From positions 1 through 25,606 of IMG/VR virus record IMGVR_UViG_3300020442_000157: DNA of 25,606 bases, one strand, 5' to 3'. The stretch comes from a virus. Position numbers and translations under genes: made by a program. Shown piece after piece: positions 8,503 to 21,616 of this stretch. Numbering within the stretch: position 1 is the stretch's first letter; every line of letters starts with the position of its first letter. The notes below the pieces were generated by a model. The model made no database searches. It was not told where the DNA came from and worked only from the letters and a program-made list of their open reading frames with translations.

Positions 8503-8520
8503 GTTAGCCCAGCTTACCTA
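8500..8520. terminator. Hairpin at the convergent junction, possible bidirectional terminator
   Basis: The 21 bases spanning both stop codons form a near-perfect inverted repeat: TAGGTTAGC pairs with GCTTACCTA around a CCA loop, 8 base pairs with a single T-T mismatch. It carries the + strand MazG TAG at one end and the - strand stop codon inside. Read on the - strand, the hairpin is followed by an ATCTTTTATC tract, a short U-run. On the + strand the following bases are T-rich but broken. This looks like a terminator for one or both transcripts, but stem strength is modest. Confidence 0.5.
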
Positions 8521-11500
8521 GATTTCTTCCTATTATAATTCCTACTCTGTACGCACCATCTTCTTCTATTGTTCTTCCTTTGTTGTGAATTTTATAGTAT
8601 TCATTCGCTAACTTACGTAAACCTCTAGGTAGATTAATCCATTTTCCTCTATCAAAAGGAGTGAAAGCACCAGTAGTGTCTTGCAGAGATTTAGAGTAGC
8701 CTATTCGTTTCGCTATAACTCTAAGTCTTTGCAATTCTAATTTAACTGCATTCTTTTTCTGTGCTTCTGACATCTCTGCATATCTTGGAGACTCAATTAA
8801 TTTTCCTATAAATGTCTCTACCAAAGGACCTAGTTCACGTTTTGTGTACAAGTCAGCTTTCTTATCTCCTAGTGATGGCAGTATCTCAAAGTATTTATAT
8901 CCCAATCTAACTAATTCTTTTTCTGCAGGGTTAGCTCTCTCTTGAAATCTTAAACCTAGTATTTGTCCAAACAAAGGAGACTGTGTTCTTACTGTGTCTT
9001 CTCTAGTTGGAGACTCAAACTCTGGAAGCTGTTGAGAGAGTATAGGAATATTCTTTTGTATCTTTGCTATGAAAGCATTGACTGCTCTTTCTTTTGTTCC
9101 TATTCCTTCTATTGCATTTGAATCCCTAACAATAGCTTCTTCCTCATCAAAAGCTGCAACAACATCTTTTACCACACGCAGTGGTGTAACAAATCCAGCT
9201 GTTACCTCTCCTAAATAACCACCTATTATTTCTCCAAGTCTCTCTGTTCCAATAGATTCTAATCCACCCTCTGTTCCTATCACTTCGTAAAACTTATCTA
9301 CAGTATATGATGCAGAACCTGCTCTAAACTGAGCACCTGTAAATCCATCTATAAAATCTTTACCTTTTAATTTATCAAGCTCACCATTGTTATACTTAAC
9401 AATCATGTCGGCAACAATCATATAAGGAGCTGCAGGAAAGAAAGGTCTAGTGTCAATCTTTCTACCATCTGATGTAGTTATATTATACCATTCTGTATCT
9501 TGGTTCTTTGATCGTATGTTTATAGCTGCCAGCAATGCGGCTGTTCCTACCATGCCTTTTGATATTCTATCTCTTACTTCTGCCCACTGTTTAGATGAAA
9601 CATCTTTACCTAATCCTGTCATTGCACCTCTAAATGCACCTTGAAACATACCATAAGCCGCATTAGCAGGATTATATTTTAACTGAAAAGACATGGCATT
9701 TGCCATAAATCTAGCGAATGGAAACTCGCCTGTACCAATAACCGGAACCATTGGAAATGCTTCTACAAACTTTACAAAGTGATGTGCAGGTCCGCTCCTT
9801 GGCATAAGAGCAAATGTATTTTTTAAAGCATACTCCATGCTTCCCTTTAACACAGATACAGGAACGCTTTTTCCTTGTTCATATATTGTACTTAAACTTT
9901 GCTTTCCATCAGATGCTCTTCGTAACTTACGATCTATATCAAATGCAAAGAACCCTCTTCTAAAAAATGCATCTTGAATTATATTTAAACTATTCATACC
10001 TCTTGAGAAAGCTGACAATGTTTCTTGTTTTTCTGAACCCACCTCTTGCAAAGCTCTAAATAATATATTATTAATTCTTGGATTGTTTTCTAAAAGAAAC
10101 TGTGAAAACTCACCACTTTTACTTTGTCTTGCTATTGCTTCAAGTAAACCAAAGCTATCTTTAGAAAATTCTCTAAGCCCTGCTTTGAAACCTTCCATGC
10201 TTCTTTGCCCTTTTAACAACGCTTGAGCAGATTTACCTGCATGGTATAGAGCAGAATCTAATGTGTTAGCAGCAGTTTCAAATGTTACAACAGCGACACC
10301 TGTTGCTACGTTTCTTGCTGTGGTAGCAATCTGTGTAACCATCAATGCTCTTCTTTCTCTATCAGCCCTCTTAAAAAACTGATAGAAACTACCCATGCCA
10401 CTAGTTACTTCTTCTTTATCTCCAAACATTTTCTCTATTCTTGATGAAAGTTTTGGGTCAATTTCTAATAAAGTCTTTTTCATTTTTCCTAAAGCACTTC
10501 TATACCCCATCACTTGTGCGGCTTCTCTGATTGTCATTCTTTCCATCTGTGCAAACTCATCTGTTGTTTCTAGGAAATCAAGAAAATCTTTTACTTTAAG
10601 ATTGTTTTTATTTAATGCTCTCTCTAATATATCTGTATCTATTTTTTCTATATTGTTTAGTATATCAAATACTACATCACTTACCTTTTGATCTTTTCTT
10701 TCTAATAAAGTTATAGGAGCTCCTGCATCTTTTTGCTCTTGGGTTATGTCTTCAACAATTTTTCCCATGCGTCTACTTAATTCAAGTTGTACTTTAGTAT
10801 CAACTACAGGTTCAGGAGACAAAGATGTTTGCCTATTTGGTGGCATCAATTGTTCATCTAGTTTTTCTTTTGCTAGTTTAGGGTCAAACTCACTCTTGGT
10901 TGTTTGTTTATTTGCGTCTATATATTTTCTTTCAGCATCAGTAAGAGGACCTTCTATTGGATCAAGTGTTTTAATTTCTTCCTCATCCATAGCTTCTTTA
11001 ATAGCTTTTTTATTTTTACCAAGACCCATAGCTTTGTTTGTTAAAGCTCCTGCACCAGCACCTAAAGCACCACCAATTCCTGCACCAATTATTGCACTAA
11101 AAGCAGTAGATGCTAAATCAATTTCATCATCAGGTTCTTTATCATTCATGTATGCTTTACGTTGTATATCTTGTTGTGCTAGATTAAAACCACTTGCACC
11201 TACTGCACCTGAGACTGAACCACCTATTATGCTTTTTGTCATAGCTGTCTTTGGTAGTATTCTTTTCATTCCAGCTTTAAATCCTAGCTTACCTAAGATA
11301 GCAGTTCCTAGTCTTCCTAAACCAAATCCAAGTAGCCAAGTTGGATCAGTAGCAACAGCACCTACATAGTCTCTTATAGCTCTTCCTGTTGTGTCTCCAC
11401 CCTCTCTACCAAAAGATGGTAAGCTATTATATTCTTCATACAAATCTCCAAACTTTCTTCTTTTTTCTTCGTCAGCACCTCTAAGATAATCTATTTGACC

Positions 11501-11806
11501 CATCATACCTACGGCATTAGTTTCAAAATACCTAGCATGAGAGATAAATCTTTTTACATAGTCTTCATTTGACTCATTGTTTTTTCTTTCGCCACTCTCT
11601 CCTAGCCTAGATACCATGTAATCATTTAAGTTAGACATTAGGTCTCTGTCATTAGCCCAATCTTGTATACTAAATGTGTCAGGATCGTCATCTTTATATT
11701 CAGATGGAGACACCTTTTCTCTATAAGAATCTAACACAGATGGTTTAGAAGAAAAGTATCCTACGTTTGGTTGTGCTAAATTTCTATATTTATCTAATAA
11801 TCCCAT
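8504..11806 (-). CDS. Large internal virion / DNA-ejection protein (T7 gp16-like position)
   Basis: This 1100-residue protein is the last gene of the - strand structural run, in the place of T7 gp16 (1318 residues). The N-terminal 130 residues are polar and helical. Three Gly/Ala-rich hydrophobic stretches follow: about 146-175 (containing DPTWLLGFGLG), 191-210, and 231-256, a glycine-zipper-like run of small residues. Long helical domains make up the rest. I see no lysozyme or transglycosylase motif of the kind found at the N-terminus of T7 gp16. The likely role is ejection into the host envelope, with the glycine-rich segments inserting in membrane. A tape-measure-like or other large virion protein is the alternative. 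The start overlaps the upstream stop by one base (TAATG). Confidence 0.65.
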   Translation of the reverse strand: MGLLDKYRNLAQPNVGYFSSKPSVLDSYREKVSPSEYKDDDPDTFSIQDWANDRDLMSNLNDYMVSRLGESGERKNNESNEDYVKRFISHARYFETNAVGMMGQIDYLRGADEEKRRKFGDLYEEYNSLPSFGREGGDTTGRAIRDYVGAVATDPTWLLGFGLGRLGTAILGKLGFKAGMKRILPKTAMTKSIIGGSVSGAVGASGFNLAQQDIQRKAYMNDKEPDDEIDLASTAFSAIIGAGIGGALGAGAGALTNKAMGLGKNKKAIKEAMDEEEIKTLDPIEGPLTDAERKYIDANKQTTKSEFDPKLAKEKLDEQLMPPNRQTSLSPEPVVDTKVQLELSRRMGKIVEDITQEQKDAGAPITLLERKDQKVSDVVFDILNNIEKIDTDILERALNKNNLKVKDFLDFLETTDEFAQMERMTIREAAQVMGYRSALGKMKKTLLEIDPKLSSRIEKMFGDKEEVTSGMGSFYQFFKRADRERRALMVTQIATTARNVATGVAVVTFETAANTLDSALYHAGKSAQALLKGQRSMEGFKAGLREFSKDSFGLLEAIARQSKSGEFSQFLLENNPRINNILFRALQEVGSEKQETLSAFSRGMNSLNIIQDAFFRRGFFAFDIDRKLRRASDGKQSLSTIYEQGKSVPVSVLKGSMEYALKNTFALMPRSGPAHHFVKFVEAFPMVPVIGTGEFPFARFMANAMSFQLKYNPANAAYGMFQGAFRGAMTGLGKDVSSKQWAEVRDRISKGMVGTAALLAAINIRSKNQDTEWYNITTSDGRKIDTRPFFPAAPYMIVADMIVKYNNGELDKLKGKDFIDGFTGAQFRAGSASYTVDKFYEVIGTEGGLESIGTERLGEIIGGYLGEVTAGFVTPLRVVKDVVAAFDEEEAIVRDSNAIEGIGTKERAVNAFIAKIQKNIPILSQQLPEFESPTREDTVRTQSPLFGQILGLRFQERANPAEKELVRLGYKYFEILPSLGDKKADLYTKRELGPLVETFIGKLIESPRYAEMSEAQKKNAVKLELQRLRVIAKRIGYSKSLQDTTGAFTPFDRGKWINLPRGLRKLANEYYKIHNKGRTIEEDGAYRVGIIIGRNLGKLG

Positions 11807-13980
11807 TATTTATTTTCTGTTTTTGGTTTAATAGTATTAAAGTAGTATGCTAGTGGATCACGAGCCGCTGCAAGAAAATTGCTTTTGTCTTTTTTGTATT
11901 CTTCATACATAAACTCTTCTCCCTCTTGAGAGTTCCACCATCTAAATGCTTCCACTGTTTTTGCTCTATCTGAAATTTCAGTTCCTTTATCTGTAAAGTA
12001 ACCATAGAGTCTAGCCATTGGTGATGCACCCAACATGTCTCCTTCACCTGTAGCCATCACAGTTCTAACTCTTTGAAATGCTTTTGAAAACTCTGCATTA
12101 TCTAGTAAAGAATTAATATCATTCATAAATTCACTCTTACCAGACTGAATAACTTTTGACATATCTTTTTGTATAGGCACTTTATTTGTTGCATCTTCTT
12201 GCTTCTTCGCTTGATCTTTTTGCAATAAATATTGATCATTTAACTCATTATAATATTTAGTTGCTGTGCCTACATCTATTTGATTGTCTAATGCAATAGC
12301 TTCTATAACGTCATCCATTGGTTCATTCGCTTGGATAGCCATCATAACTGCTGTCTTTTCTTGCTTTGTAAATTTTTGAATTAAATCTAATCTATGATCT
12401 AGGTATGCTTGTATATCTTTTCCTCTTGTACCATCACCTTGTTCAAAAGTCATAGTGTCAATCATAAATTTCATACCAATATCATTTTCAAAACCTTTCT
12501 TTAATTCTCCAGTTTCAAAGTCAACAGCATGTTTGTATATACTATATCTTGCTTCGTCATTAATTTGATTTTCTATTTGTTGATATTCTAAAGTTTCAGG
12601 ACCATATGCTTGTCCGTCTTGCAATATATAAAACCCCGGAAGTTTCTTTCCAAAATTTGGAGATGCTTGATCTCTGTCTATAGCACCTTCAACATATCCG
12701 TTTTGTCTTCGTAAATCTGTAGTAATAGCTACCATACGATTTTCTATATATCCAGTGCTTTCATATCCAACCACTTCATTGTTAGCTATTGCCCTGTTTC
12801 TTTGAACAGTCATATCTAATGTTAAAACAGATTGCATTTGTGCATTTACTTGATCTATCTGCTGTGATACTTTTAACGACTTTGGTTTTTTCTTTAACAC
12901 TTCTAACTGTGCATTTAAATCTATTAAAAGCTCTTGCACACTATCAGGTTTAAGCTGTTCTTTTTTTAATAAAACATTTAGGTCTGATATCTTTCTTGCA
13001 TTAGCTCTTCCATACTCTGTAAAATCTTCTAACTCATATTTAGCTTTTAAATTATTTGTTTGCAGTGCTATATTCCTAAGAGCTAAATTCTGCTCCTCTA
13101 AAGGCATCAAAGCTATTTCTTTTATGAGTTTATCTTTATACAGTGGGTGCATTTCTTGGTTGTCTTTAAACTCTTGATTCATTTTAAGCAATGTTGCTTC
13201 ATTAATCTGTGTGTTTATACTATGGTTTTGTAATGCAATTATAGTATCAGCAGGAACATAGTTTAAATTTACAGGTTGATATCCTGTATTTTTACCTAGC
13301 TCACCTAATATTTTTTCTCTATTTTTAATGCCTGCTACAGAAAGTTGCTGATTAAAACTACTTTTAAGATACTCTTCAGGTATACCAATTCCAATAGCTG
13401 ATAAAGTTCCCGCAGCTTCTGCTTGAAATGCCAAGTCAGGGTCTCTATCCAACGTAAATGGATTTCTTCTTTGTGCATACAACTTTGCTTGTGTTGAAAT
13501 ATCTTTTCCATATTGATCTGCTTTTGCAGGATCATAGTCTCCTACTTTTATAAACATACCTTGTAAAAATTTATTTCTAGCTTCATCTGTATATCCACCA
13601 TACTCCTCTTTTCTAGCACCTATTGTAAAACCAGTGGGTGTTGTTACTGTTGATGCTATGTTTTGTTTTTCTTCAAACGCTTTTCTGTGTAATGCCATAT
13701 CATTGTTAAGTGCTTTTATAAAACTTTCTGCACCATCTAAACCACCCATTAAAACAGCTTCAATTTGTTTTTTGTCTAAACCTTGTTGCTTCAATTTTTG
13801 TGCAGCTTCATTGTAGGCAAGTTCATCTTGTTCGTAATTAGAGTTCCACTCATCAAACTTAGTTACATATCTATCTACATATTTATCTGTTATTACCTGT
13901 GCTCTTTGTTCAAGGTCTCTTAATCTTTGTGACCCTCTTTGTGCTGCACCTTTTGCAAACTGCCCTAACATAAAACGCAT
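11806..13980 (-). CDS. Internal virion protein (T7 gp15-like position), mostly helical
   Basis: This 724-residue protein is close in length to T7 gp15 (747) and lies directly before the gp16-position gene. It is almost entirely helix-forming, rich in Gln, Lys and Glu, with no signal peptide or membrane segment. The N-terminal MLGQFAKGAAQRGSQRLRDL is basic and amphipathic. Coiled-coil-like stretches occur around residues 330-380. No enzymatic motif is visible. By length, composition and order it probably forms part of the tube through which DNA crosses the periplasm. It is coupled to both neighbours by one-base TAATG overlaps. The function is inferred from context, not from a motif. Confidence 0.6.
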   Translation of the reverse strand: MRFMLGQFAKGAAQRGSQRLRDLEQRAQVITDKYVDRYVTKFDEWNSNYEQDELAYNEAAQKLKQQGLDKKQIEAVLMGGLDGAESFIKALNNDMALHRKAFEEKQNIASTVTTPTGFTIGARKEEYGGYTDEARNKFLQGMFIKVGDYDPAKADQYGKDISTQAKLYAQRRNPFTLDRDPDLAFQAEAAGTLSAIGIGIPEEYLKSSFNQQLSVAGIKNREKILGELGKNTGYQPVNLNYVPADTIIALQNHSINTQINEATLLKMNQEFKDNQEMHPLYKDKLIKEIALMPLEEQNLALRNIALQTNNLKAKYELEDFTEYGRANARKISDLNVLLKKEQLKPDSVQELLIDLNAQLEVLKKKPKSLKVSQQIDQVNAQMQSVLTLDMTVQRNRAIANNEVVGYESTGYIENRMVAITTDLRRQNGYVEGAIDRDQASPNFGKKLPGFYILQDGQAYGPETLEYQQIENQINDEARYSIYKHAVDFETGELKKGFENDIGMKFMIDTMTFEQGDGTRGKDIQAYLDHRLDLIQKFTKQEKTAVMMAIQANEPMDDVIEAIALDNQIDVGTATKYYNELNDQYLLQKDQAKKQEDATNKVPIQKDMSKVIQSGKSEFMNDINSLLDNAEFSKAFQRVRTVMATGEGDMLGASPMARLYGYFTDKGTEISDRAKTVEAFRWWNSQEGEEFMYEEYKKDKSNFLAAARDPLAYYFNTIKPKTENK

Positions 13981-14462
13981 TACTTAGTCTCCTCTTTTTT
14001 TCTAGACATCAATCCTTTTTCTTCTTTTACAACCTCTGCTGTTTCTTTTATATTCTCTTCTTCCTGATCTAGTTTAGTTAATATAGCATTTATTGCAGCC
14101 TTGTTTGGTTTTTGTTTTTTAGGAACTTCTGAATCCATTGTGTACTTTATCTTTGCTGTTTCAGCCATGCCCTTCATAAACTCCATAAGTATTGGGTTCA
14201 ATAAAAATGCAAGGTCTACACTGTGAACACCTTCCATAACACCACCAGTAGTTATAGATTCAGCTATTGTACTCAAAGGAACACCCATCTTAATTACACT
14301 TAATAGTTTAGTAGATGATTCTTCTTGAACAATTCTTTCAAAGTAAAACTCCATACCATCTTCTATTGTATTTATTTGAGGTGGGTTAAGCCAAGGTCTA
14401 CTGTTTAATTCTGCTGTCATTCCTTGTCCCGGAATAGGTGCTGTAAATCTTTGTTGTTGCAT
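13980..14462 (-). CDS. Hypothetical virion-associated protein with PIPGQGMTAE...PWLNPP motif
   Basis: This 160-residue protein begins with a proline-rich segment (PIPGQGMTAELNSRPWLNPP, residues 9-28), then TIEDGMEFYFERI. From memory, similar N-terminal segments occur in conserved hypothetical proteins of marine myoviruses and podoviruses, but I cannot check this here. A central hydrophobic helical region (about residues 54-96) is followed by a Lys/Glu-rich tail. AAAAAGGAAG precedes the start. Its neighbours are internal virion candidates, so a structural or assembly role is likely; no specific function can be given. Confidence 0.75.
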   Translation of the reverse strand: MQQQRFTAPIPGQGMTAELNSRPWLNPPQINTIEDGMEFYFERIVQEESSTKLLSVIKMGVPLSTIAESITTGGVMEGVHSVDLAFLLNPILMEFMKGMAETAKIKYTMDSEVPKKQKPNKAAINAILTKLDQEEENIKETAEVVKEEKGLMSRKKEETK

Positions 14463-14707
14463 TATGTTACTTCCTTTTTAAATTTATTCTGTATACTGTC
14501 TGTTATCTTTGCAATCTTTATTATGTCTTCTTGCTCACTTTTAGATTTAAGTTTTTGTTGATTTTTTATTATTCTTCTTTGTGGTCTTTGCATCAAAGTT
14601 CCCTTATAATCATCTGCTGGGTTAAAATCTGTTTGTAGCATTTGTGATCTCAAAGCGTTTACTTTTTTGTATGCCATCTCTGCTGCTTTTGTTTTTGCTA
14701 TTGTCAT
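14462..14707 (-). CDS. Small basic hypothetical protein
   Basis: This 81-residue, Lys/Arg-rich protein is predicted helical at both ends, with a polar middle (NPADDYKGTLMQRPQRR). The start has AAGGAT a few bases upstream, and the stop overlaps the next gene's ATG by one base. No family is recognised. Its place between the hendecad-repeat protein and the internal virion genes suggests a minor virion or assembly protein. Confidence 0.7.
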   Translation of the reverse strand: MTIAKTKAAEMAYKKVNALRSQMLQTDFNPADDYKGTLMQRPQRRIIKNQQKLKSKSEQEDIIKIAKITDSIQNKFKKEVT

Positions 14708-14711
14708 ATTA

Positions 14712-16355
14712 TTAATCCTTAATTATAGGTATATCAAGCATTTTACCTACTATTGAACCACCAATTGGACTTGTAAATAAATCCATAACAAATCCACCTA
14801 TTGATGCACTTGCTTCTGCATCTAGTTTTAAATGTGCTAATTCAGTTTGTATCTTTGCGTCAATTTCAGCAAGAGTAAGTTCATGCAATCTATCTTTACC
14901 ACTCTCACCACTTGTCCATGCCCATTCCATTAAGTCACTCATATGTGACCACATATTGTTATAGGCTGTAGTTGATATATCTAACAATGCCTTTGCATTA
15001 AATTCGTTTGCAAAGTTTTGTGATGCATTGTCCGTAGTTGCTATTTGTTGTTTCCATTTTTTGTTAAATTGTGCTATGACTAATTGATTTTGTGCATTAA
15101 ATTGTTCTCTTGCATCTTCTAGTTGTTGATTAAATTTAGCCATTGAATTTTCTTCACCGGCATTAAATTTTTCCATAGCATTTGTTTGTGCTGCATTAAA
15201 CTGTGATATATTGTTTGCAAGATTAGCCATGAACTGATCTGTCTGCATCTTTGATGTAGCATTAAATTGTTTAGCTGCATTGTCAGCAGCTTGATCTGAT
15301 AACATAAAATCTTGTTGTGCTTTTGTGTTAAACAATTCTGTTTGTTGTGCCGCTTCAAAGTTGGCAAGATCAACTTGTAAAAATCTTTTAGAGTTTTCTA
15401 CTGCTGCTTGTTGTCTGTTATTTAGATTTGCTATGTTAAGTGAAGACAACGCTGCTGCTTTTGCAAGTGTAGCTTGTTGTGCATTTGATGCATTAGCTAA
15501 ACCATACTCTGCAAATGTATCTGCATCTGCTTTTGCTATAGGTAATTGTGACTCTAATATTGCGTTAAATACTGCACCACTAGCCATACTACTAGCACCT
15601 AACCCACGAGCTGCCATAGCGTTCATAGCTGATCTTACTGCCGCTGTAGCATATGATGGTATCTGTCCATCTTCAGCTTGAGCACTCAACATTTCTAACT
15701 GACCTTGTACAGTAGCTTTCTTTTGTACTTCAGCTTGTCCTGCTTTTAGAGCCGCATCATATGTCGCTAACTCTTCAGGTGACATATCTCCTTGAGCAGC
15801 TTTCACTAACATGTCGTCAGTTACTTGTGTTGTCTTTGCTTCAGCTTTAGGTGCATCACCAACTTTTGTTGGATCATATGTTTCTGTTTCTACTTTTACT
15901 GGATCATCTGCTGTTGTAGTTTCACCCTTTGTTACTTCTACTTTTGGTTTGTCTGTTTCAACTTGTCCTTTATCATCTCCAACAAATTGATCATCTTTTT
16001 CATCTATTTTACTAGGGTCTATTGTTGTACCCTCTCCTGCTTTTGGTTTTTGTATTTGGTCAATAGTATAATCCATGATGCTTTGTGTATTTTGATCGGT
16101 AGCAGGTTGTGTAGTAGTAGTATCGTCTTTCTTTTCTTCCTCTGTACCTGTGCCTGTGTCACCACCTTCTTGCATCTTTTTAACTACACCACCTTCAGCC
16201 ATCTGCATAGCTCTTGCATTATAGTTTCGCATCATTGCACTCTTATCAGGATTAGCCATTAAGAAGTTTTCAAACTGATTCATGTCACCCATGTGACCCA
16301 TTGAACGTGCAATACGTTGCATCGCTTCAGGTTTAAATGCTTTAAAAGTTGCCAT
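14712..16355 (-). CDS. Virion protein with long helical 11-residue repeats (T7 gp14-like position)
   Basis: This 547-residue protein has three parts. Residues 1-65 are Met-rich and end in AEGGVVKKMQEGG. Residues 66-180 form a low-complexity acidic, Thr/Lys/Asp-rich linker. From about 180 onward it is Ala/Gln/Asn-rich helix. Between residues 342 and 452 a Phe-Asn pair recurs at exact multiples of 11: 342, 364, (Phe only) 375, 386, 397, 408, 419, 430 and 452, with extra hydrophobics often at +4 and +8. Such hendecads make right-handed coiled coils. The C-terminus has a Gly-rich hydrophobic segment (about 519-540). Placed upstream of the gp15- and gp16-position genes, it may be the smaller ejection-tube component, although it is much longer than T7 gp14 (196 residues). 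Confidence 0.7.
   Translation of the reverse strand: MATFKAFKPEAMQRIARSMGHMGDMNQFENFLMANPDKSAMMRNYNARAMQMAEGGVVKKMQEGGDTGTGTEEEKKDDTTTTQPATDQNTQSIMDYTIDQIQKPKAGEGTTIDPSKIDEKDDQFVGDDKGQVETDKPKVEVTKGETTTADDPVKVETETYDPTKVGDAPKAEAKTTQVTDDMLVKAAQGDMSPEELATYDAALKAGQAEVQKKATVQGQLEMLSAQAEDGQIPSYATAAVRSAMNAMAARGLGASSMASGAVFNAILESQLPIAKADADTFAEYGLANASNAQQATLAKAAALSSLNIANLNNRQQAAVENSKRFLQVDLANFEAAQQTELFNTKAQQDFMLSDQAADNAAKQFNATSKMQTDQFMANLANNISQFNAAQTNAMEKFNAGEENSMAKFNQQLEDAREQFNAQNQLVIAQFNKKWKQQIATTDNASQNFANEFNAKALLDISTTAYNNMWSHMSDLMEWAWTSGESGKDRLHELTLAEIDAKIQTELAHLKLDAEASASIGGFVMDLFTSPIGGSIVGKMLDIPIIKD
14997..15332 (-). repeat. Array of 33-base (11-residue) protein-coding repeats
   Basis: Inside the 547-residue virion protein, the FN(A) motif recurs every 33 bases through about ten units, two of which have lost the Phe. 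The repeat is clear at protein level and degenerate at DNA level, with recurrent ATTAAA (antisense of TTTAAT) marks on the + strand. Confidence 0.85.
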
Positions 16356-19360: not shown

Positions 19361-21616
19361 CTATGAATGTGTATGTTCTGCGTATTCTAATGTTACAGCA
19401 TCTAATGAGTATGGAGCATCTGTAGACTCTGACTCAAACTGTAATGATGCTGTAAATCCTGATCCTGTAGTTTGTTCTTCAAATATACTTTTTAAACTTT
19501 CTCCACCATACGTTGAAGAACCTACAGAGTTTACAGTTTTAAATGATATCTTAGTATTGTCATTTAAACTAGAGGGTGTTGCAGGACTAAAAGTAAAATT
19601 ACCTGCATTGTTTGTTATAGATGGTGTAGATGATAGTGTAAATACTGTATGTACAAAATCAGCACCTGATCCTGTTCCTTGACCTGCAATTATAAATGTA
19701 TCACCTGCAATTAAATTAGATGTAGATAAATTATCTACTGCAATAGTAGTAACACCTGAACTGTAATTACTTCCGTTGTTTACTAATCCACCATGAGCAA
19801 ACTGCACATTACCATATATAGCTTGTTCACTTGCAACTGCTGTATTAGATATTGTTTTAGTTGCAGGTTGTATTATAGATGGATCAGCAAAGTCATACTT
19901 TAATGAAAAGTTTGAATTAAAACTACCTTGTGGGTCTGTAAATAAAAACATTTTATAAAAAGATTTTCTAACTCTAGGATCAGTAACTGGAAAAAAAGGT
20001 GTAGCAAATGTAGATATTATATTACTACCATCAAAACTATTACCATCTTCCATTTTATATACATACCCATCTGTATGTGCAAACACAATTAATTCAGATG
20101 TACCATTGTAATTACTGTCTGCTACAAATGCTCTTATACCTCTAAGCTCACCCCAAGCTAAACCTTCTTGTAATTGTGTAGCCATTAAACCTTGTGCAGA
20201 AGTTGTAGTAATACTACGATTAAAACCTAATATTCTGTACTGACTTTTTTCTCTAATAACTATACTTGCAAATGATGTATTTCTATTTACAAAGTTTGTT
20301 ACCTCATCCTGTATCTGTTTAGAAGTAACAGCTAAACCAAAATCACCTATCTTATCTGTGGCACTTAATGATCTTATACCATCCGGTCCTAAGAATAAAA
20401 TGTCACCACCTATTTCTTGTATTGTATCAGGTGCTACACACCCAATGTCCATTGTAATAGGTTGTAATTGAAAGTCAGCTTCTGATGAACCTACAAGTCT
20501 TTGTATTCTTCTTTCACTAAATATAATTAGCTGTTCTCTAAATACAACAATACCTGTAATTACGTCACCAACATTTATTGTACCTGCACCTGATGCCGCT
20601 GTAAAATCATCTGCTGTAAATAATGCAGTATACACTATATTAGAACCTTTTGCAAACATTATATGATTTTTAAAGTTTGCTACGTGGGTTGCTCCAATAA
20701 CATCTGAAGGTGCATTGTCTATTGATGTAAAGGTTGCTCCATCAAAAGTAAAAGGTTTGTTTATTTCATCTACACCAACTAAAGTTTCCGTGCCATTAAA
20801 ATTAAAACTAGCAAATCTATGCTTTGACATTAACGATCTATCAGATGATAAAAACGTAACTGCTGCATCATCACTAGGAGAACTAGCAAGAGCAGGGTTT
20901 ATATTTATTGTTGACCCACCTGACGATACAGTTGCATCTGCTGTTACTGTATAAACCTTTGCTATACCTGCTACTGTAAACGTGTCACCTGCTTGAGGTG
21001 CGGCAGTTAATCCATCTATGGCTAATGTACTTCCTGTCTGTGATCCACCATTTACTAATACTGTTCCGTACACAGGTACATTTATTCTAGTCCAATTAGA
21101 TGCAGAACCTGCTGACCTAAATAAGTTACCACCTCTTGCTACAACTGCTGTATCTTCAAAAGATGCTACACCTTCTATATCTCCTGAACCTGTTACAAAA
21201 GTAACAGCTACTTGATCTGTTGCATTTGCTACAAGATTAGGTGTAAAACCAACTGTAACTCTTTTATTTGCTGTTAAGTCTGTTGTATCTACAGATGACA
21301 CAGTATAAACTTGTGCATTACCTGCTACTGTAAATGTATCATTCACGCTAGGAGATGAAAACATGTTCGCTAAAACTATACTACTACCACCTGATGATAC
21401 TGTTGTAGATACTTTAGGCTCACCATAAGGTGGCACTTTATTATCATCAAACTTTTGAAAACCTTCTATTCTTCTAAATCCACCTTGCACAGATGGTTCA
21501 AAGTTACTTAACACTCTAGCTGTATTAGGTTGTTGCATACCATGCTGTAATGGAGATAGATTAGATATTAATCCACCTTTAAATTCTAAAGGATATGTTT
21601 TCCATGTAGTAGGCAT
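19361..21616 (-). CDS. Tail nozzle / tubular protein B-like (T7 gp12 / P22 gp10 type)
   Basis: This 751-residue protein follows the adaptor gene, as T7 gp12 follows gp11. The N-terminus (EFKGGLISNLSPLQHG, then ARVLSNFEPSVQGGFRRIEG) is typical of podovirus nozzle or stabilisation proteins. Their propeller-like strands are visible around 260-530, for example FSERRIQRLVGSSEADF and DILFLGPDGIRSLSATDKIGDFG at about 366-427. Three related beta modules sharing GDTFTVAG...VYTV lie at about 71-145, 184-257 and 610-695. The start directly follows the upstream TAA with only a weak ribosome-binding site, so translation is probably coupled. Confidence 0.82.
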   Translation of the reverse strand: MPTTWKTYPLEFKGGLISNLSPLQHGMQQPNTARVLSNFEPSVQGGFRRIEGFQKFDDNKVPPYGEPKVSTTVSSGGSSIVLANMFSSPSVNDTFTVAGNAQVYTVSSVDTTDLTANKRVTVGFTPNLVANATDQVAVTFVTGSGDIEGVASFEDTAVVARGGNLFRSAGSASNWTRINVPVYGTVLVNGGSQTGSTLAIDGLTAAPQAGDTFTVAGIAKVYTVTADATVSSGGSTININPALASSPSDDAAVTFLSSDRSLMSKHRFASFNFNGTETLVGVDEINKPFTFDGATFTSIDNAPSDVIGATHVANFKNHIMFAKGSNIVYTALFTADDFTAASGAGTINVGDVITGIVVFREQLIIFSERRIQRLVGSSEADFQLQPITMDIGCVAPDTIQEIGGDILFLGPDGIRSLSATDKIGDFGLAVTSKQIQDEVTNFVNRNTSFASIVIREKSQYRILGFNRSITTTSAQGLMATQLQEGLAWGELRGIRAFVADSNYNGTSELIVFAHTDGYVYKMEDGNSFDGSNIISTFATPFFPVTDPRVRKSFYKMFLFTDPQGSFNSNFSLKYDFADPSIIQPATKTISNTAVASEQAIYGNVQFAHGGLVNNGSNYSSGVTTIAVDNLSTSNLIAGDTFIIAGQGTGSGADFVHTVFTLSSTPSITNNAGNFTFSPATPSSLNDNTKISFKTVNSVGSSTYGGESLKSIFEEQTTGSGFTASLQFESESTDAPYSLDAVTLEYAEHTHS
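19532..19789 (-). repeat. Third copy of the GDTF-type module in the nozzle gene
   Basis: Protein residues about 610-695: GVTTIAVDNL, AGDTFIIAG, then VHTVFT and TKISFKTV. This is the most diverged of three modules. Confidence 0.7.
20846..21067 (-). repeat. Second copy of the GDTF-type module in the nozzle gene
   Basis: Protein residues about 184-257: GSTLAIDGLT, AGDTFTVAGIAKVYTVT, then DDAAVTFLS. It closely resembles the first copy. Confidence 0.8.
21182..21406 (-). repeat. First copy of the GDTF-type module in the nozzle gene
   Basis: Protein residues about 71-145: GSSIVLANMF, VNDTFTVAGNAQVYTVSS, then TDQVAVTFV. Confidence 0.8.

Follow-up and report, generated by a model that had tools for sequence, protein, structure and literature searches.

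The locus and its gene neighborhood

The window analyzed here is a 25,606-nucleotide stretch of viral DNA (IMG/VR record IMGVR_UViG_3300020442_000157). On its minus strand lies an ORF of 547 codons whose product contains a long run of 11-residue units (hendecads) between two conserved domains, and which we refer to as the rod protein (Table 1). Based on the relatives of this protein, the window is a fragment of an HMO-2011-type podovirus genome, an assignment consistent with the DNA polymerase, Cas4-type exonuclease, ribonucleotide reductase, and MazG genes of the window. HMO-2011-type phages are among the commonest short-tailed phage groups of the ocean. The SU10-type adaptor encoded by this HMO-2011-type phage connects the marine group with the tail type of Kuravirus. 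The low-complexity region near the N-terminus of the rod protein varies greatly in length and sequence among relatives, the N-terminal region being approximately 212 residues here and more than 600 in some of them.

Table 1. Coordinates of the rod gene, its parts, and neighboring genes in the window, with the S74-ending rod genes of relatives
Feature	Position	Strand	Basis or remark
Hendecad-rod protein gene, 547 aa	14712..16355	-	ORF; holds the Phe-Asn repeat
N-terminal ~212 residues: short head, GGVVKKMQEGG motif, variable Thr/Pro/Asp-rich low-complexity stretch	15720..16355	-	N-termini compared
Conserved N-domain, residues 213-275, ATVQGQL...AARGLGASS...LPIAK	15531..15719	-	Alignments and HMM; with C-domain in 264 sequences
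Hendecad rod, residues 276-429, 14 hendecads = 154 residues (8 upstream, 6 in Phe-Asn block)	15069..15530	-	Quantized length, zero Pro
Phe-Asn block of rod, residues 364-429, six hendecads; further Phe at 430 and 452	15069..15266	-	
Conserved C-domain, residues 430-504, FN..W(K/R)(Q/R)...W..D..WAW.S.E...R	14844..15068	-	Gap-free alignment, 27 relatives
Gly/Ala-rich apolar C-terminal tail, residues 515-547	14715..14813	-	Hydropathy
81-aa ORF, lineage-specific, between rod and partner genes	14462..14707	-	Homologues in only 6 loci
160-aa protein (probable partner), FxAPIPG...PW..PPQ motif	13980..14462	-	Co-occurs with rod protein across family
724-aa protein, third large module gene, fast-evolving, no known family	11806..13980	-	
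1100-aa protein, last module gene	8504..11806	-	Homologous to HMO-2011-type last late gene
SU10-type adaptor protein, 250 aa	21617..22369	-	PF24175, E 2.2e-17; places virion among short-tailed phages
751-aa tail protein, HMO-2011 gp44 homologue, nozzle position	19361..21616	-	PHROG hits; homologue in L275
S74-ending rod genes of four roseophages	L019:3165-5024, L021:2307-4721, L023:2169-4703, L029:2676-4460		

The rod gene opens the last late-gene module, ahead of the convergent early region, and is followed in order by the 81-aa ORF, the genes for the 160-aa, 724-aa, and 1100-aa proteins, and then the convergent early genes. The 160-aa protein was found at 241 loci and in 25 phage records, all 25 of which are among the holders of the rod protein, and by this distribution it is a probable partner of the rod protein. 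Its model contains a small, confidently predicted helical domain (residues 21-110; pLDDT about 96 over residues 31-110), for which a Foldseek search returned no PDB match and one strong viral match, an unnamed 183-aa protein.

Other members of the family add to this picture of the module. In CRP-603, gp48 (L027:4122-5063), annotated as a 'cell wall hydrolase', sits between the rod gene and the gene for the 160-aa protein. In HTVC115P, the rod gene is directly followed by gp46 (L014:9712-10161), annotated as a 'toxin-activating lysine-acyltransferase'; speculatively, this enzyme could prepare a module protein for membrane insertion by acylation. HTVC033P gp52 (L012:11988-16169), homologous to the last gene of the module, matches LPD38 (E 1.3e-23). 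This domain is confined to polyvalent proteins of the phage type, which are thought to be injected (PMC5512222). A 51.9-kb relative with a rod of 38 hendecads (G003) encodes both SU10_portal and SU10_adaptor and shares its terminase-portal-capsid-adaptor-tail set with the others, with no long-tail gene recognized.

The hendecad pattern and the quantized length of the rod

A preliminary description of this DNA had reported Phe on a strict 11-residue register at 14997-15332 of the minus strand (residues 342-453), usually with Asn as the next residue, and both observations were borne out. The window protein has nine Phe residues (342, 364, 375, 386, 397, 408, 419, 430, and 452) on one register modulo 11, and eight of these are followed by Asn, the exception being Phe-Met at 375. 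The register has two gaps, with Ser at 353 and Thr at 441. Composition shuffles reached a maximum of seven in-register Phe, seen once in 20,000 shuffles, and when the best of any period from 3 to 30 was taken, 2,000 shuffles gave at most six. Within the rod, the Phe count at lag 11 has a p of about 5e-5. The hendecads extend far beyond the segment first described, spanning residue 276 to about 452 and then continuing into the ungapped C-terminal domain. Toward the N-terminus of the rod, two hendecads often combine into a 22-residue unit (N-L-x-N-x-Q-Q...) that keeps the same register.

We used tblastn to find relatives of the rod protein, which is present in 27 phage records. These include Puniceispirillum phage HMO-2011, roseophages CRP-1 to CRP-738, and pelagiphages HTVC033P and HTVC103/104/115P, as well as Vibrio phage CHOED, two Aeromonas phages, Pseudoalteromonas Slicky01, and Sinorhizobium and Rhizobium phages. 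The gene is almost always annotated as encoding a 'hypothetical protein'; one carries the annotation 'huntingtin' and one record has no gene there. Scans of IMG/VR yielded 247 additional loci and were performed with clade alignments, the alignment of all relatives being too divergent. Two HMMs then served as anchors for the rod, one modeled on the preceding domain, which ends LPIA[KQ], the other on the following domain, which starts [FS]N..W(R/K), and 264 sequences contained both.

In 263 of the 264 sequences, the rod residues separating the two anchors number an exact multiple of 11; the sole off-register rod (L231) is one residue too long. Sixteen lengths were found, from 10 to 58 hendecads (110, 143, 154, 165, 176, 209, 220, 231, 264, 275, 297, 308, 330, 418, 528, and 638 residues); the cultured phages cover 13, 14, 15, 16, 19, 20, and 28 hendecads. 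Length variation affects the upstream block and the Phe-Asn block alike, each by whole hendecads, and a tree of the end domains (177 tips) requires at least 21 changes in rod length. In a group of loci that includes L254, L262, L264, and L267, the upstream block measures 20, 30, 40, and 50 hendecads, as if a 110-residue block had been repeatedly duplicated.

No Pro and no Cys occur across the 59,302 rod residues of the 264 sequences; Gln, Ala, and Asn together make up 47% of these residues, and Asn plus Gln 31%. Identity autocorrelation across the family is strongly positive at lags 11, 22, 33, and 44 and near zero or negative elsewhere, and the helical repeat with its 11-residue period is common to every relative. 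Register 1 is Asn in 66% of hendecads; Asn is the mark of the whole rod, and Phe is confined to the C-terminal block. In CRP-212 the Phe ladder is lost, with register and rod length kept. The further hydrophobic positions proposed at +4 and +8 from the Phe differ in strength: +8 is clearly apolar (Ile/Val/Met) family-wide, whereas +4 is weaker, with Leu or Met in about 40%. The Asn described earlier as unusual and buried is real and more conserved than the Phe, its burial being a reading of the helical wheel.

Tandem Repeats Finder detected no 33- or 66-bp tandem array in the gene of the window. The repeat therefore looks old, and its register has apparently been kept by selection at the protein level rather than by present DNA slippage. 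The near absence of non-hendecad indels is the feature that points to selection on register, with the qualification that unit duplication alone would already favor whole-unit steps. Judged from these sequences, the rod has grown and shrunk in evolution by whole 11-residue steps.

Predicted helices and relation to known phage proteins

The rod is strongly implied to be helical, a hendecad corresponding to 11 residues in three helical turns, and its two blocks differ in how their apolar residues are arranged. Plotted on a helical wheel, the apolar residues of the Phe-Asn block gather mainly in a single seam (registers 0, 4, and 8). The Phe residues of this block form one strong seam, an arrangement that would fit a small coiled coil no less than a tube. 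The upstream block has two apolar patches, the second harmonic being 0.90 versus 0.51 for the first with bootstrap intervals well apart, and there is little net amphipathicity at 11/3; two such seams would suit helices that each contact two neighbors. The apolar face shifts between the blocks, making the helical periodicity of the pooled rod (peak at 3.74) misleading, and the blocks were therefore analyzed apart. An AlphaFold2 monomer model from 63 sequences consists of helices only, one of them 114 residues long, and predicts no compact globular fold; its confidence is low (mean pLDDT 63, pTM 0.25). The profile of the rod protein matched no solved structure.

At the C-terminus, the apolar tail reaches a 19-residue Kyte-Doolittle maximum of 1.25, which is under the usual transmembrane cut-off, so that no clear membrane helix is predicted. 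In four roseophages (CRP-3, CRP-738, CRP-235, and CRP-212) the rod protein ends in an S74 intramolecular-chaperone domain placed right after the apolar Gly-rich tail; the other relatives are without it. The call for CRP-3 lies above the Pfam cut-off, and those for CRP-738, CRP-235, and CRP-212 are based on the same sequence motif and on PHROG hits. Matches to phrog_4287, a 'DNA ejection protein' family, were obtained for the S74-bearing ends of CRP-738 and CRP-212. We rejected this match as evidence of homology to the rod, since it depends on S74 and disappears once S74 is removed. The match does suggest that S74 occurs within this ejection-protein family, which includes SU10 gp21 and gp22, and S74 is therefore no proof of an external fiber.

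The rod protein of the window matched no Pfam or PHROG family. Across the family, no tape-measure families were found among the Pfam and PHROG hits, and no needle or fiber families among the hits for S74-free sequences. Local-mode hhalign comparisons of the module proteins with T7 gp14/gp15/gp16, P22 gp7/gp20/gp16, and phiX174 H showed no profile relation, with probabilities of 0.2% for T7 gp14, 0.1% for P22 gp7/gp20/gp16, and 0.3% for phiX174 H against 99.4% for the positive control. The module resembles T7 gp14-16 and P22 gp7/20/16 in its position and in the approximate sizes of its downstream proteins, but differs from them in sequence and profile, and the T7 and P22 proteins lack hendecad periodicity. 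The earlier placement of the downstream genes at T7 gp15/gp16 positions accordingly holds for position, and does not extend to a profile match with gp14, gp15, or gp16. T7 gp14 has about 200 residues and 4-5 predicted TM helices (PMC8954989), whereas the window protein has 547 residues and its best 19-residue hydropathy falls short of a membrane span.

Other likenesses lie in the manner of working rather than in descent, and we claim membership of neither the tape-measure nor the phiX174 H family. In siphophages, tape-measure proteins carry Phe- or Trp-marked repeats of 11 residues and gain or lose them in complete units (Belcaid et al. 2011, PMC3271669), and their published Pattern 1, seven [FW] spaced by 11 (PMC3271669), occurs exactly in the window protein and in 11 of the 264 sequences. 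The rod family shares with them the 11-residue unit, the aromatic marker, and the gain and loss of whole units; it differs in belonging to short-tailed phages, in using Asn as the general marker, in a length untied to the tail, and in the lack of a profile match. The tube of phiX174 H contains hendecads and has a lumen lined by Gln, Asn, and Arg (PMC7354561). Gln/Asn-rich hendecad helices are common to both proteins, and H forms a DNA conduit, a role that is only proposed for the rod protein. In contrast to H, in which three hendecads are followed by heptads, the rod family has 10-58 hendecads only, a Phe ladder, and a dsDNA phage background, and shows no homology to H.

Parallels in gene order come from phage SU10, in which gp20-24 are present in the virion and absent from the genome-release intermediate (PMC9509320). 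These genes occupy the same end-of-late-operon position as the rod-protein module, and gp21 and gp22 are like the rod protein in being Asn/Gln-rich, in their long stretches devoid of Pro, and in having a Gly-rich tail at the C-terminus. The SU10 ejection proteins nevertheless show no significant profile similarity to the rod or the C-domain, and have no lag-11 repeat.

Possible functions of the rod

The preliminary description also suggested comparing repeat counts with the width of the periplasm; a dependence of repeat number on the host envelope is not supported. Phages of the same strain, FZCC0040, have either 14 hendecads (CRP-3, -235, and -212) or 19 (CRP-207), and SAR11 phages have 14 or 28. 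Rods of 38-58 hendecads would measure 63-96 nm if straight, the 58-hendecad rods at about 96 nm being far longer than a periplasm. In MQM1, the tail is 9.2 nm (PMC10410586), versus 26 nm for its rod if straight. We therefore rejected a periplasm-spanning ruler as a simple rule, rod length following neither host strain nor tail length.

The proposal that the protein is an ejection-protein candidate stands: its gene lies just ahead of those for the large proteins that close the late operon, the location of the SU10 ejection proteins. Judged from gene order, the rod protein is probably injected with the phage DNA, a candidate role based on gene position and neighbors. The ejection reading is supported by the SU10-like placement, by LPD38 on the homologue of the last gene, and by the SU10-type adaptor and portal. 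For the fuller explanation that we favor, namely that the rod protein is an internal virion (ejection) protein of the HMO-2011-type podoviruses that forms a helical rod or conduit, we estimate the chances to be about even. In such a mechanism, the conserved N- and C-domains would be joined by a continuous alpha-helical rod, with every hendecad marked by Asn and the Phe ladder added in the last block. The head would hold the protein until it leaves together with the DNA or ahead of it, and several copies might then associate laterally along their hendecad seams to give an amide-rich rod or conduit of helices. This assembly could extend the short nozzle into the envelope, and the 160-aa partner might help, as might both large proteins of the module. 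Because such an assembly would require precise register, both from one end domain to the other and along the oligomer, only length changes of whole hendecads would be tolerated.

Several features count against an ejected conduit. S74, present in four homologues, is more usual in trimeric external fibers; the C-terminal tail has no clear membrane helix; and there is no homology to the ejection proteins of T7, P22, and SU10 or to phiX174 H beyond S74. Heads of roughly 70 nm are reported for CRP-9 and CRP-13 (PMC8528129) and for MQM1 (PMC10410586), and rods of 38-58 hendecads approach or exceed this dimension, so that the longest could not be stored straight if the protein is internal. In the literature searched, we found no virion proteomics for the HMO-2011-type group.

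The main rival, which we consider unlikely, is that the protein forms the stalk of a tail needle or fiber: an external, probably trimeric coiled-coil rod on the nozzle, with the variable N-terminal region as anchor and a length set by features of the cell surface. Trimeric coiled-coil tail needles are found in P22 and SU10 (PMC9509320) and share with the rod protein a long helical rod. The S74 domains of CRP-3, -738, -235, and -212 are typical of trimeric fibers and would fit a trimer, very long rods pose no problem outside the head, and the rod gene comes after the tail-fiber genes in the window. Yet no needle or fiber profile matches the rod or its end domains, S74 is compatible with an internal protein given the phrog_4287 membership of SU10 gp21 and gp22, and the gene module differs from that of the needles. 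The composition of needles differs from Asn/Gln-rich hendecads, and the co-occurring 160-aa protein and large end-of-operon genes better fit an internal module. It is improbable that the hendecads instead act as a tape-measure-type ruler, fixing during assembly how long a virion structure (inner core or extended nozzle) becomes, in the manner of long-tailed phages. The Phe/Trp-marked repeats of siphophage tape measures (PMC3271669), with their seven-[FW] pattern exact in the window protein, speak for such a ruler; the mismatch between rod and tail in MQM1 (PMC10410586), the short-tail gene set of the 38-hendecad relative, and the lack of a tape-measure family match speak against it.

The late-gene module, the strict partner protein, and the rod-like helical composition would also be explained by an internal scaffold or core protein that organizes DNA or the core on the portal, outside any conduit. 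We hold this to be quite doubtful, as it explains by itself neither a strict register over 10-58 hendecads nor the positional likeness to the ejected proteins of SU10. Synuclein and perilipins have 11-residue repeats that form lipid-binding amphipathic helices. By analogy, the rod could lie flat on a membrane, a reading consistent with its 11-residue repeats, the single apolar stripe of the Phe-Asn block, and the apolar C-terminal tail. We consider this very improbable, since apolar residues of the N-terminal block are divided between two seams, its net amphipathicity at 11/3 is small, and membrane binding needs no exact register across up to 58 units.

Whatever the function, the quantization of rod length is unusually clean evidence for strong selection on helical register along a very long rod. 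An ejected rod or conduit would also raise the broader prospect, unlikely in our estimate, that podophages have a tape-measure-like ejected protein of their own: an Asn-marked hendecad rod, changing in length only by 11-residue quanta (10-58) and untied to tail length or host strain, that would build an extensible tube or rod outside the virion. If true, such a protein would connect siphophage tape measures functionally with the phiX174 H tube and with podophage ejectosomes. The natural series of rod lengths, including different lengths on one strain, would provide a test of envelope bridging by podophages and of the length of the bridge.
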